Source: Planifilum fulgidum
GTDB taxonomy: Bacteria > Bacillota > Bacilli > Thermoactinomycetales > DSM-44946
DNA length: 58,973 bases
Direction of reading: 5' to 3'
NCBI RefSeq assembly: GCF_900113175.1
Contig: NZ_FOOK01000021.1
Location: 1 to 58,973, forward strand
The notes beneath the pieces were generated by a model, which saw only the letters and a list, made by a program, of their open reading frames with translations, was not told where the DNA came from and made no database searches. The translations under genes were made by a program, and so were the position numbers. Shown one piece after another: positions 15,966 to 19,903 of this stretch. Each line of letters starts with the position of its first letter. Positions within the stretch are counted from its first letter, which is position 1.

Positions 15966-17267
15966 ATGAGAACCGCTTTGACTGGAAAGAAACCGGTGGT
16001 CATGCTGGGACTGGTTACGGCGCTCTGCCTCCTGGGCGATTCCATGCTGTATATCGTGCTGCCCATCTACTGGCGGGAAGGGGGCATCGCCTCCCTCTGG
16101 GAAGTGGGGCTGATCCTGTCCGTCAACCGGTGGATCCGCCTGCCGATTCATCCGCTGGTCGGGCGGATGTATCGGAAAATCTCCCTTCGCGCGGGGATCC
16201 TTCTCGCCGTCGTCCTGGGCAGTCTGACGACCGTCGGATACGGCTTCGCCGACGGTCTGCCGGCCTGGCTGCTCCTCCGCTCGCTCTGGGGGGTGGCATG
16301 GTCGCTTTTGCGGATCGGTGGATACTATGCGATCATCCGCGCTGCAAGCGGGAAGAACCGGGGGGAAATGACGGGGACCTACAACGGTTTGTACCGTTTG
16401 GGAAGCCTCGTCGGGATGGCGGCGGGCGGCCTGTTGGGTCCCTGGATCGGCCTTCGGGACACGTCGCTGCTCTTTGGAGGCCTGTCCCTGGTCGGAATCT
16501 TCCTGCTCCTTTCTTTCCCTTCCGAAACGGTTTCCGGAAGGGAGGCCGAAGCAAAAAAAGAAAAACCGGCCCGCCATCCGCTCGGGTGGGGAAGGGCCTT
16601 TCCCGTACTGTTCAGCGTTTTTTGGGTGGCCCTGGTCTTTCAGGGGATTCTCCCCTCCACGCTGAGCGCCTTCATTCTCCGCTTCGGCGAAACGGTGACG
16701 CTTATGGGCTTCACCCTGGCCGCCACCGCCTGGTCCGGAATCCTTCAGGGCGCGCGATGGGGGTGGGAACCGTTCCTGGCGGGGCGAATCGGTCGCTGGT
16801 CGGACGGCACGTCGGGCAGGATCCCTTTGTTTGTGGCCTCGCTCATCCTTTCCGCCGCGGGGTTGTCGGCAATGTTGATCTCCTCGGCGTTTCCGCTGTG
16901 GACGGCGGCAACCCTTTTGGTTCTGCTGACGGGAACGTCCCTCACCACCCTCTCCGACGCCCTCGCCGCGGATGAAGCGGTCCGCACCCGCAACGATTCC
17001 CTGTTGCCCCTGACCGCTTTGGCCCAGGATCTGGGAGCGGCGGTCGGACCGGTCCTGGCCTATTTGCTGATGGAATCCGGGGCGGATCTCTGGCGGGTCT
17101 ACGCGACAGCGGCCGCGGGCTTCGCCGCCATGGCCTGGTTCTGGCACCGGAGTCCATCCTGCGGGCGGGCGGGGAAAAAGGAGAGGGCCGGCGGAGCGGA
17201 TTCCGCATGCTCCGCCGGTGTCGTCCGCGTCAACGAAATCACTCGGCGCGAGGAGAGAAAAAAGTGA
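15966..17267 (+). CDS. MFS transporter
   Basis: The 433-residue protein has about twelve hydrophobic segments arranged as two halves around a charged loop (about residues 185-205). The loop after TM2, RWIRLPIHPLVGRMYRK, is a variant MFS motif A. The substrate cannot be told. It overlaps the following phosphatase gene by 4 nt (GTGA), so the two are translationally coupled. Confidence 0.82.
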   Translation: MRTALTGKKPVVMLGLVTALCLLGDSMLYIVLPIYWREGGIASLWEVGLILSVNRWIRLPIHPLVGRMYRKISLRAGILLAVVLGSLTTVGYGFADGLPAWLLLRSLWGVAWSLLRIGGYYAIIRAASGKNRGEMTGTYNGLYRLGSLVGMAAGGLLGPWIGLRDTSLLFGGLSLVGIFLLLSFPSETVSGREAEAKKEKPARHPLGWGRAFPVLFSVFWVALVFQGILPSTLSAFILRFGETVTLMGFTLAATAWSGILQGARWGWEPFLAGRIGRWSDGTSGRIPLFVASLILSAAGLSAMLISSAFPLWTAATLLVLLTGTSLTTLSDALAADEAVRTRNDSLLPLTALAQDLGAAVGPVLAYLLMESGADLWRVYATAAAGFAAMAWFWHRSPSCGRAGKKERAGGADSACSAGVVRVNEITRREERKK

Positions 17268-18097
17268 AAGGAATCCGGACAATCGAAAGCTGCACCCGCA
17301 GGGGGACGGGCGATTGGAACGAAGACGGGCTGATCCTCCATCCACCCGCCCATCGATACGGAGTGGTGGACGGGGCGACCGGATTCGATCCCGTGCGCGA
17401 TCCCCTCGGACGGACTCCCGGCCGGATCGCCATGGAAACGGTGGTGAGCACTTCTCTTGGGGAGAAGGATTCCGCTTCCCTCCGCTTTCTCACCCTGGAA
17501 GCCAACCGGAGGCTCCGGACCCTCATGCAGTCGTACGGGGTGGATGTCTCCGATCCGTCCCGCCGCTGGAGCGCGGCCCACGCCGTGGTTCAAATCCGGG
17601 GGGATCATTTGGAATGGGTGCAAAGCGGCGACTGCAAGATCTATGCCGCAAGCCGCGACGGCGAGGTCCTGTCCCTTGCCGAGGACCGGGTCAAACCCCT
17701 GGACGATCTGGTCCTTTCCCGGTGGGTGGAAGAATTCGAAGGGAGCCGACCGGATGGAGTCCTCCCGGAACCGATCCGGGAAGATCTGCGGAAAAACCGC
17801 GCACGGGCAAACCGTCCGGGGGGCTATCCCGTGATCAACGGAGATCCCGCCCTGGAGAAGCATTTGCAGTCAGGAACCCTGTCCCTCAAAGGCCTCTCCT
17901 TCCTCCTGCTCGTCACGGACGGCATGGTTCCCCGGCACAGGGATGAAGCGGAGTGGGTCCGAAGGATCGGGCAAGAGGGGTTGGCGACGATGATGGATGA
18001 ACTCTTACGGGAAGAACGTCGGGACCCAACCTGCGCACGGATGCCCCGATTCAAGGTCTCCGACGACAAAGCGGGGATTCTGATCCGATTTGAATGA
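17264..18097 (+). CDS. PP2C-family serine/threonine phosphatase-like protein
   Basis: The 277-residue protein keeps the PP2C metal-site signatures: a DWNED block near the start, VVDGATGFDP, WVQSGDCKIYAA, LLLVTDGMV and a final SDDKAGILIRF. It should bind two Mn or Mg ions and dephosphorylate a protein Ser/Thr, but sequence cannot show the target. GTG 17264 with GAGGAGAG upstream is preferred over an upstream start inside the transporter gene. No kinase gene lies nearby. Confidence 0.78.
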   Translation: MKGIRTIESCTRRGTGDWNEDGLILHPPAHRYGVVDGATGFDPVRDPLGRTPGRIAMETVVSTSLGEKDSASLRFLTLEANRRLRTLMQSYGVDVSDPSRRWSAAHAVVQIRGDHLEWVQSGDCKIYAASRDGEVLSLAEDRVKPLDDLVLSRWVEEFEGSRPDGVLPEPIREDLRKNRARANRPGGYPVINGDPALEKHLQSGTLSLKGLSFLLLVTDGMVPRHRDEAEWVRRIGQEGLATMMDELLREERRDPTCARMPRFKVSDDKAGILIRFE

Positions 18098-18118
18098 AAA
18101 GGGGCGGGCGCCGTCATA

Positions 18119-18160
18119 CCGGGGGCGGAAAGGGACCTTCCTTTCTCCTCCGGCTTTTTT
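18119..18160 (+). terminator. Terminator of the MFS-phosphatase unit
   Basis: A GC-rich imperfect stem (from about 18119 to 18153) around a GACC loop is followed by CTTTTTTG, about 20 nt after the phosphatase stop. Confidence 0.65.
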
Positions 18161-18281
18161 GTTCTCTCTTTGGCCCGGTTGGGCGACGGCCTAATAGGAA
18201 TCAGAAATCGTGCCCTCGAGACATCACCGGGGTGAAGAGACGGCCATGTCTCATTTCCTTACCTGAAACGGGTTATACCTG

Positions 18282-18311
18282 TTGTAATAATAATGAAATT
18301 CAATTTATAAT
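18282..18311 (+). promoter_or_regulatory. Sigma-A promoter of the split nuclease pair
   Basis: TTGTAA (18282-18287), 18 nt, TATAAT (18306-18311), in a locally AT-rich stretch. The first gene starts about 24 nt beyond the -10 box with AAAGGAGTGG as ribosome site. Confidence 0.7.
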
Positions 18312-18334
18312 TATAAACGAAAGGAGTGGATAAA

Positions 18335-18592
18335 ATGCCAAAAAAGCGGATTTTCACCGCATCGGAGATTCAAAAGTTTTGCTACTGCCAGGAACAATTT
18401 CGCCTGGAAAAGCTGGAGGAACAAGGAAAGCTGCATTGGCCGCAAAAGCCGGACACGCACCGGTTGGAAGAGGGAATTGAATACCACAAGCATTTCCGGC
18501 AAAGGGAGGCGGCCGTGCCGAAGAGCCAGGTCTTGCTGATCGGTTTGGGGGTTGTCTTCGGTTTGATATGCCTTTGGCTGATCACCCGTTAG
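18335..18592 (+). CDS. Small membrane protein with Cas4/RecB-like N-terminal motif (first half of a split nuclease)
   Basis: The 85-residue protein opens with FTASEIQKFCYCQEQF, resembling the first conserved block of Cas4/AddB/RecB-type PD-(D/E)XK nucleases, including a Cys where the first iron-sulphur ligand is expected. EEGIEYHKHF follows, like the family's G-x-x-H active-site His motif. It then has a single C-terminal membrane segment (about 68-84). It lacks the rest of the nuclease, which is encoded by the next gene 11 nt downstream in another frame. ATG 18335 has AAAGGAG at good distance. The family link is inferred from motif order and needs profile searches. Confidence 0.65.
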   Translation: MPKKRIFTASEIQKFCYCQEQFRLEKLEEQGKLHWPQKPDTHRLEEGIEYHKHFRQREAAVPKSQVLLIGLGVVFGLICLWLITR

Positions 18593-18603
18593 GGGGGATG
18601 AGG

Positions 18604-19104
18604 ATGGAACTTTTTCTTGCGCTCTTATTGATCGCCGTCCTGATCGGGTATTGGGTCCAAAAGGGAAGAAAACGGAAACCGAAGGGAAAGCTGCTTTACT
18701 CCGACATGAACGGATGCGGCCGCGCCTGGGTGGACCCGGAATGGGGAATCAAGGGGAAGCCGGACGAGGTTTGGGAAAACGACGGCCGCTTGCATATCGT
18801 CGAGATCAAATCGGGGGCTCCAAAGAAAAACACCGCCTATCGCGGCCACATCATGCAATTGGCCGCCTATATGCGGCTTGCCAAAGTTCGATTCGGCAAA
18901 CCCGTCGAAGGCGGGGAAATCCGTTATTCCAACGGGAAAACCTTCCGCTACCATTGGGATGATCAAATGAAAAGGGAGCTCCTCGCCGTGTTGCAACAGA
19001 TGAGACACGTGGAAGAGACGGGAGAAACCTTCGTATCCGCGACGGCAAACCAATGCAGGCGCTGCCTTTACAACCCCGTTTGCGAAAAGAAACGGTACGC
19101 ATGA
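18604..19104 (+). CDS. Membrane-anchored Cas4-like PD-(D/E)XK nuclease (second half of a split nuclease)
   Basis: The 166-residue protein starts with one membrane segment (about 2-18) and a strongly basic stretch (positive-inside, so the rest is cytoplasmic). It continues with the nuclease core: GKPDEV (catalytic Asp), LHIVEIKSG (E-x-K), HIMQLAAYMRL (Q-x3-Y), and a C-terminal C-x2-C-x5-C cluster (CRRCLYNPVC) like the iron-sulphur ligands of Cas4 and AddB. The His motif and first Cys are missing here but present in the preceding gene. ATG 18604 lies 6 nt after AGGGGGG. No CRISPR or recombination gene is adjacent. Confidence 0.75.
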   Translation: MELFLALLLIAVLIGYWVQKGRKRKPKGKLLYSDMNGCGRAWVDPEWGIKGKPDEVWENDGRLHIVEIKSGAPKKNTAYRGHIMQLAAYMRLAKVRFGKPVEGGEIRYSNGKTFRYHWDDQMKRELLAVLQQMRHVEETGETFVSATANQCRRCLYNPVCEKKRYA

Positions 19105-19129
19105 AAAGGGCGACAAAGCGCCAGAAGCT

Positions 19130-19903
19130 TTAGCGGCAGCGCCGTTTCGGGCAGGTTTGGCACAGCTGCCCGTCCCCGACTTCACAATAGAGACAGCAGG
19201 TTTTGCGGATCCGCACCGGCTGGTCGCATCCGGGAAGGCAGCACTTCTCGCAGAAGAACCGCTTGAGCGGATTTTTTCGTTCTCCGAACAGCGAAGGATG
19301 GGCGCTCAGCAGGCAGTGAAAATCCTCGTTGATGCGACTTCTCTTCTCCTCCCCGGCTTTCCCCGGCATGTAGGTTTCGTACATCCAGTAGAAGTAGATC
19401 GACGCATTCTCCCAGAGAACGGTGGGCGACAGGCCGGAGACCCGGGAAACCGTCCGGATCACTTTCGCAAGATGATCCCGGAACACCGCCCCGACAATTT
19501 CCTCCCGCCAGGAGGCGCGGTCGCTCCCTTCGGGAGAGGAGACCTCCCGCTCCTTCAGGTGCAATCGGGCCCGCCAGGCGCCTTCCCCGGGAAAAGTGAC
19601 TTCCAACAGGCAGTTGTCCGCTCCGACCTTGAGTCCCTTATCCAACAGGGTCATGGCATACAAGGTCGGCATCAACAGGCAGTAACTGTATTGTTTGAGG
19701 AGCAGGGAAGCGGTGACGTACAGGGAAGGGAACCGCAGCCGGTCCGTCAAGTCGCGAAGCAAGTATGCCGCCTGATCCCCGTCCATCAAGGCGCGGGGGT
19801 CGATCCGGCCGGCGTCGGGTTGAAGCCGGACCGCCAGGTTGCAATCCTTTTCGAGGCGGATCACGTCCTCCTCACTGAGTGTCGACAGCACGAAGGTTTT
19901 CAT
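19130..19903 (-). CDS. FhuF-like ferric siderophore reductase, (2Fe-2S) protein
   Basis: The 257-residue protein has the FhuF-type C-terminus: VRIRKTCCLYCEVGDG followed by CQTCP, giving the Cys cluster that binds a 2Fe-2S centre. The N-terminal part is helical and matches siderophore-iron reductase proteins only loosely. It should reduce ferric siderophores in the cytoplasm to release iron. The gene overlaps the preceding ABC ATPase by 32 nt and closes the minus-strand siderophore operon. An additional CCLPGC motif precedes the canonical cluster. Confidence 0.72.
   Translation of the reverse strand: MKTFVLSTLSEEDVIRLEKDCNLAVRLQPDAGRIDPRALMDGDQAAYLLRDLTDRLRFPSLYVTASLLLKQYSYCLLMPTLYAMTLLDKGLKVGADNCLLEVTFPGEGAWRARLHLKEREVSSPEGSDRASWREEIVGAVFRDHLAKVIRTVSRVSGLSPTVLWENASIYFYWMYETYMPGKAGEEKRSRINEDFHCLLSAHPSLFGERKNPLKRFFCEKCCLPGCDQPVRIRKTCCLYCEVGDGQLCQTCPKRRCR

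Follow-up and report, generated by a model that had tools for sequence, protein, structure and literature searches.

The closest described relative of the gene pair reported here is the solo-Cas4 of Thermoanaerobacteriales, a Cas4 gene which is vertically kept outside CRISPR-cas loci and whose function is named as an open question in the abstract of the 2017 study (Hudaiberdiev et al. 2017, PMC5704561). The pair, ORF A and ORF B, lies on a contig of Planifilum fulgidum (NZ_FOOK01000021.1, 58,973 nucleotides, analysed over its full length and hereafter called the window; coordinates in Table 1) and falls under the definition of a solo-Cas4 in that study, namely a Cas4-family gene outside cas loci, but it differs in that one of the four cysteines is carried by a second, membrane-anchored chain. 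The words 'split' and 'transmembrane' are absent from the main text of PMC5704561, where no description of a split, an A partner or membrane anchors was found, and no split or membrane Cas4 was described in the titles and abstract openings of the open-access papers found on Cas4. What appears to be new, within a known Cas4 family, is the division into two chains with A as the partner and a membrane anchor on each. Our principal conclusion, with a probability of about 0.75, is that A and B are likely to form, as its two subunits, a single DNA nuclease of the Cas4 family that is docked on the cytoplasmic side of the cell membrane.

CRISPR-associated Cas4 (PDB 7mi5 and 8d3l) resembles ORF B in predicted fold, motif set and the three C-terminal cysteines, whereas it is one soluble chain and the enzyme considered here has split chains and no cas neighbours seen at the inspected loci. 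The Argonaute-associated ACE1, MGME1 and Dna2 share the PD-(D/E)XK fold with B by Foldseek, and the N-terminus of Exo5 is matched by the A chain of one relative; these four proteins differ in being single chains as far as listed, and to our knowledge none of them has membrane anchors. The fold family of NucA from Bacillus subtilis is different from that of Cas4. Like the present pair NucA is membrane-anchored, being a Gram-positive DNase that serves DNA uptake, but it is one chain with a periplasmic catalytic domain (PMC8262900).

Motifs, predicted fold and membrane segments

ORF A was found to contain the motifs Y-C18-x2-Q and G-x3-H51, and ORF B contains D54, E67-x-K69, Q85-x3-Y89 and C151-x2-C154-x5-C160. 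In nine aligned pairs from two classes Y17, C18, Q21, G47, Y50 and H51 of A are invariant, as are G51-K-P-D54, E67, K69, Q85-L86, Y89, C151, C154 and C160 of B. The PD-(D/E)XK catalytic set is complete across the chains (H51 in A; D54, E67 and K69 in B), and the count of four Cas4 cysteines is reached only when the single one of A is added to the three of B. In Cas4 proteins the cysteines hold the cluster and the H, D, E and K residues form the active site. As the invariant residues of A include a cysteine and the histidine and those of B the other cysteines together with D, E and K, the putative cluster and active site appear to be divided between A and B, and an iron-sulphur cluster would have to draw a single cysteine from A and its other three from B. 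The first-pass annotation of the window had listed a full Cas4/PD-(D/E)XK motif set over two genes, with D, E-x-K, Q-x3-Y and C-x2-C-x5-C in the second, and all of these were recovered; its putative cluster drawing cysteines from both chains holds at the level of motifs. Of the 'FCYC' block it read in the first gene, the second cysteine is conserved and the rest varies (FVYC and FGYC in relatives), and its G-x-x-H motif has to be corrected to G-x3-H (GIEYH).

ORF B matches PF12705 at 3.2e-10 (40.8 bits, cut-off 22; profile positions 120-247 of 247) and the Cas4 profile PF01930 at 8.3e-10 (39.4 bits, cut-off 22.7; positions 53-158 of 160). With TIGR00372 it scores 57.7 bits, under the cut-off of 65, which the B chains of two relatives exceed (L047, 111.9 bits; L046, 70.5 bits), and these chains would be labelled as cas4 by that model. 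The A chain of L047 matches positions 1-59 of the 180 of TIGR00372 at 5.1e-5, and that of L046 matches Exo5 over 9-59 at 0.0015 and PF12705 over 2-50 at 0.0048. These matches cover exactly the profile part missing from B, and hence they support the view that A is the missing Cas4 N-terminus; no Pfam match was obtained with the A chains of Thermoactinomyces vulgaris and Marinithermofilum abyssi. When A and B of the window are joined, the PF12705 match spans positions 3-247 of 247 (41.9 bits). The profile searches therefore place B clearly over the PF12705 and PF01930 cut-offs and detect A only in relatives, with the joined sequence spanning PF12705.

The AlphaFold2 model of ORF B, built from 8 sequences, has a mean pLDDT of 83.4. 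In a Foldseek search its top matches were the Cas4 subunits of Cas4-Cas1-Cas2 complexes (7mi5 at 1.3e-6 and 8d3l at 1.9e-5), and further matches included ACE1, MGME1, SSO0001, RecE and Dna2, among others. Among PADLOC models, B of the window matched Cas4 and Cas1-fusion models, DruK at 2.6e-12 and, weakly, an Argonaute-associated model at 0.0056; no non-CRISPR defence system was matched by both chains, and A of the window matched none. The earlier label of a 'Cas4/AddB-type' nuclease stands for Cas4, by the profile and fold of B, and its 'AddB-type' part is less precise.

Each chain has one hydrophobic segment, at residues 66-84 in ORF A and at residues 1-19 in ORF B. Hydropathy and charge were scored in 11 of the 28 pairs known (see below). 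In all 11, the best segment of A has a mean hydropathy of 1.63-3.37 over 19 residues and ends 1-9 residues from the C-terminus, that of B has 1.76-3.14 and starts at residue 1-4, and basic residues are in surplus on the N-side of the A segment and on the C-side of the B segment. From these flanking charges both soluble lobes are predicted to lie inside, in the cytoplasm, with hardly any loop on the outer side. Among the ordinary Cas4-like ORFs scored, the best hydropathy does not exceed 1.43; most pairs are thus clearly separated from them, and that of T. mirandus (G022) by a small margin. One membrane segment per gene at the junction with cytoplasmic soluble parts, as the first reading of the window had it, is consistent with all the pairs scored.

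Distribution of the split pair and its relatives

Among 61 relatives, a search with B matched 10 genomes and a search with A matched 7 at 4.4e-6 or better, in all of which A adjoins B, and 6 more at 0.0188-0.0842. An order-wide profile search matched B in 9 of 42 genomes. In 7 of these 42 the two genes stand as a split pair whose reading frames are both intact, namely in three genomes of one genus (G000, G001 and G002), Marinithermofilum abyssi (G009), Thermoactinomyces vulgaris (G007), T. mirandus and Lihuaxuella thermophila (G016). The spacings from A to B in the order are 11, 11, 12, 34, -1, -4 and -4 nt. In another class of the phylum the pair was found in 21 of 37 genomes, distributed by family as 19/20 in f92, 2/2 in f72, 0/13 in f110 and 0/2 in f162. 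Of these 21 genomes, 19 have an intact A immediately upstream of B, the A frame being broken in G471 and G309; 17 of these 19 pairs share a 4-base ATGA overlap, and for the remaining two the script gave overlaps of 25 or 34 bases. The survey of adjacency thus gives 28 genomes across two classes in which both genes stand side by side, 26 of them with both frames intact, and an ATGA overlap in 19 of the 26. The solo-Cas4 published for Thermoanaerobacteriales is probably the same protein as B, since family f92 is probably that group.

In a sample of 398 genomes of the phylum, strong A hits (1.3e-15 or better) were obtained in 8 genomes, and split-type B hits (4.0e-64 or better) occurred in the same 8, always adjoining A; no strong A homologue without B was found in this sample. 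The hits of the B profile in 25 further genomes begin at 3.4e-20, and those of their ORFs that were read, a part only with four hits having no locus, are ordinary Cas4 or its relatives. Weak A hits alone (3.3e-4 to 7.1e-4) were seen in six genomes, of which three gave full-length Cas4-like ORFs and three gave no ORF by motif.

The genome samples searched were of Bacillota and Pseudomonadota. In Pseudomonadota only the genome of L033, described below, was matched (1/240 in its class and 1/299 in its phylum). A phage or plasmid gene was considered and rejected on tblastn of B, which gave no match in 50,697 phage records and 3 weak matches only (~26-27% identity) in 72,556 plasmid records. Scans of viral contigs by short exact peptide patterns yielded no relative, either with B queries or with ordinary Cas4 alignments. 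A contig scan of 84,980 species with one peptide pattern found 7 loci and hence does not serve as a survey.

For B, the dN/dS ratio by NG86 is 0.24 against G002 and 0.21 against G001, and by YN00 it is 0.22 and 0.18, respectively. The corresponding values for A are 0.29 and 0.15 by NG86, and 0.27 against G001 by YN00; the YN00 value against G002 is given below. Taken together, these values show B to be constrained in both comparisons and A clearly so only against the more distant G001.

No close relative with one intact, catalytically complete chain was found. G003 has its A-like and B-like parts in a common frame that is interrupted between them by a TAG, and its E-x-K motif is lost. In G032 a single chain (L042) has the membrane hairpin at the same place and has also lost E-x-K; it lies beside and on the same strand as type I restriction genes, with matches to HsdR, HsdS and HsdM, and is possibly a non-catalytic paralogue in a defence setting. 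The one apparently intact single chain found is a distant protein from an alphaproteobacterial metagenome-assembled genome (MAG), L033, which matches PF12705 over 1-247 at 4.8e-12; its structural model is poor (mean pLDDT 70.3, pTM 0.44) and nothing rests on it. A tree places the 23 rows of ordinary Cas4 on one side of a branch with support 96/98. The 15 split rows do not form one group (3 changes are needed, and they are united in 0% of 200 bootstrap trees), because the long-branch rows L033, L042 and G003, whose places are unsure, fall among them. The tree, from which L130 was omitted for a motif mismatch, speaks neither for nor against a single origin of the split, and that the hairpin form may predate the split is a guess.

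Proposed enzyme and competing explanations

From the observed motifs, their conservation, the split, the co-occurrence, the hydropathy and charges and the predicted fold of B, we infer a heterodimer, an iron-sulphur cluster, nuclease activity and the topology given above. A would supply the N-lobe with one iron-sulphur cysteine and the metal-binding histidine, and B would supply the catalytic D and E-x-K, Q-x3-Y and the remaining three cysteines. The terminal membrane helix of A and the initial one of B would form a tight hairpin between the Cas4 H and D motifs, opened at its outer turn. As neither chain holds the full active site or cluster, activity should depend on the pairing of A and B in the membrane, and coupled translation via the ATGA overlaps of the 19 pairs mentioned above would help to make both chains. 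It would be an unusual form of nuclease control if two chains that enter the membrane separately had a catalytic site and a metal cluster in common. Should the solo-Cas4 of an entire bacterial family indeed be one half of such an enzyme, studies of B by itself would deal with an incomplete protein, and annotation would overlook A.

The putative two-subunit, membrane-tethered enzyme, already suggested by the first-pass annotation, is supported by the profile matches of B and of the A chains of relatives, the co-occurrence and the lack of an intact single-chain close relative. It has to be weighed against three other accounts of the two chains. That a frameshift has broken one Cas4-like gene, leaving two remnants of a dying gene, would agree with the decayed look of G003; this candidate was rejected and is extremely improbable, as the pair is adjacent in 7/42 genomes of the order and 21/37 of the other class with the catalytic residues retained. 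Separate ribosome sites or ATGA overlaps and a dN/dS of 0.18-0.24 in B also argue against it, and the earlier statement that this is 'not a simple frameshift' is upheld by the conserved split. A programmed frameshift that yields a single fused product and makes the genes look split when they are not is very improbable: a -1 step would join the frames directly in the relatives with an ATGA overlap, but no classic slippery site was noticed by eye (no scan for one was made), and in the window a separate ribosome site serves B after the gap from A. It is also improbable, if less so, that B is a complete monomeric or homodimeric anchored nuclease which A merely accompanies, say as its regulator or inhibitor. 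B alone does score as Cas4, and A of the window alone gives no significant family-profile match (Pfam, TIGR and PADLOC models); on the other hand, the A chains of relatives match the missing Cas4 N-terminus, and A carries the very cysteine and histidine which are absent from B.

Several observations weigh against one two-chain Cas4 enzyme, beginning with the silence of the profiles on A of the window just mentioned. The addition of A to B raises the PF12705 score by only 1.1 bits (40.8 to 41.9), and the cysteine end of the B model is poor, with pLDDT below 50 at residues 145-150 and 155-166. The YN00 dN/dS of A against G002 is 0.73, showing little constraint in the close pair. An extra B copy without A, truncated at its N-terminus, is present in G009 (L013/L029). 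In L033 a single hydrophobic segment separates the H motif from the D motif, which misfits the hairpin; if this segment crosses the membrane, the two halves would lie on opposite sides, which we cannot explain. As regards the role, the neighbours vary among the loci of the order, and in the other class the pair adjoins a gene of spore-cortex type rather than one for DNA uptake or defence.

The weakest step concerns this role, for which the trimming or destruction of DNA arriving at the membrane by transformation, conjugation or phage injection can be put forward only tentatively. It is plausible because a Cas4-like protein curbs plasmid transfer or maintenance, lowering that of RSF1010 plasmids in Synechococcus (PMC10653904), and because NucA is a membrane DNase in uptake. 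Competence as the role is kept as a hint, depending as it does on inferred genome identities. Service to the own chromosome, in repair or in the handling of DNA during sporulation, is somewhat less probable than action on incoming DNA. It would suit the near-universal presence of the pair in family f92, a de-N-acetylase gene in 9/9 fetched loci of the other class (directly after B in the 7 displayed, giving the order A, B, de-N-acetylase), of which the one protein scored, from G476, is spore_pdaA (313.9 bits, cut-off 298), and a spore photoproduct lyase gene adjoining the pair in G016. Against it stand the lack of common neighbours at the loci of the order, the window promoter of vegetative sigma-A type by consensus in a sigma-70 scan only, and the restriction of the pair to 7 of the 42 genomes in an order of spore-formers. 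The neighbourhood hints on the role point different ways.

A wider proposal is that there is an old Bacillota class of membrane-gated Cas4, in which the active site and cluster would lie at the interface of the two chains, and assembly near the DNA-import site would activate the enzyme, spare the chromosome and police entry; we regard it as rather doubtful. If true, such a membrane-gated, entry-policing Cas4 would account for the solo-Cas4 seen in Thermoanaerobacteriales. Natural competence is common among species of Thermoanaerobacter and Thermoanaerobacterium, which are also open to engineering (PMC4857275), and deletion tests would be practical if the genomes of the other class belong to these genera, as their inferred identity suggests.

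Expression signals and genomic neighbourhoods

ORF A and ORF B are confirmed as two ORFs in different reading frames, 11 nt apart from the stop of A to the start of B, each with its own ribosome site as noted earlier: AAAGGAGT precedes the ATG of ORF A and GGGGGGATGAGG that of ORF B. The promoter upstream of A has 10/12 consensus matches, its 3' edge lying 23 bases before ORF A. In 18090-19260, 2 promoter-like sites were observed in the sigma-70 scan against 0.5 (sd 0.6) in shuffles. The 55 bases preceding ORF A are identical to those of the sister genome G002 at 53 positions, the entire intergenic stretch at 172/237. The promoter, a consensus match, probably drives both genes, which look like a single transcript.

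Table 1. Coordinates of the gene pair, its signals and the other features discussed (plain numbers refer to the window, prefixed ones to the named locus)
Feature	Position	Strand	Remark
ORF A	18335-18592	+	85 aa; Cas4-like nuclease N-lobe, C-terminal hydrophobic segment
ORF B	18604-19104	+	166 aa; N-terminal hydrophobic segment, then catalytic lobe
Sigma-A-like promoter TTGTAA-18-TATAAT	18282-18311	+	consensus match upstream of ORF A
Protein phosphatase 2C (PP2C)-like gene	17207-18097	+	just upstream of ORF A; weak match, 19.6 bits, cut-off 24
FhuF-like gene	19130-19903	-	convergent with ORF B; TIGR03951 51.8 bits, cut-off 63.85
Ordinary Cas4 of the host (G000:C1)	L001:1450-2046	-	separate from the pair
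Decayed relative in G003	L010:1042-1884		
Single chain in G032	L042:907-2334	-	
HsdR, HsdS and HsdM genes	L107:9011-15703	-	beside L042
Single chain in alphaproteobacterial MAG	L033:4022-4723		
B copies in G009	L029:2005-2445; L093:1990-2871		
CRISPR-like array in G016	L095:11-2214 and beyond		32 copies, ~73-base spacing

The window pair lies outside any cas locus with cas1 and cas2, and inspection of the genes around split loci, by eye and, in part, by profile, revealed no cas genes. Its neighbours, read partly by eye, are an MFS-like gene, the weak PP2C match, the FhuF-like gene and ABC transporter genes; the FhuF-like gene adjoins genes reading as a siderophore ABC transporter. The host has in addition an ordinary Cas4, whose neighbours were read by eye as Cas3, Cas1 and Cas2, and the occurrence of an ordinary Cas4 together with a solo-Cas4 in one bacterium is called extremely rare in the abstract of PMC5704561.

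Outside one genus, no neighbour beyond the pair is common to the loci of the order among the 25 largest neighbour groups. In the other class a flippase-like gene was found in 8/9 fetched loci (L098-L106, of L077/L083 type), all of which have the de-N-acetylase gene. The pair of G009 lies near a replication-relaxation gene, an SNase gene and a PhoD gene; both listed B copies of this genome are preceded by similar genes, among which is a Replic_Relax match, and this suggests a mobile element. In G016 the spore photoproduct lyase gene is downstream of the pair, and the CRISPR-like array lies ~5 kb upstream of it.
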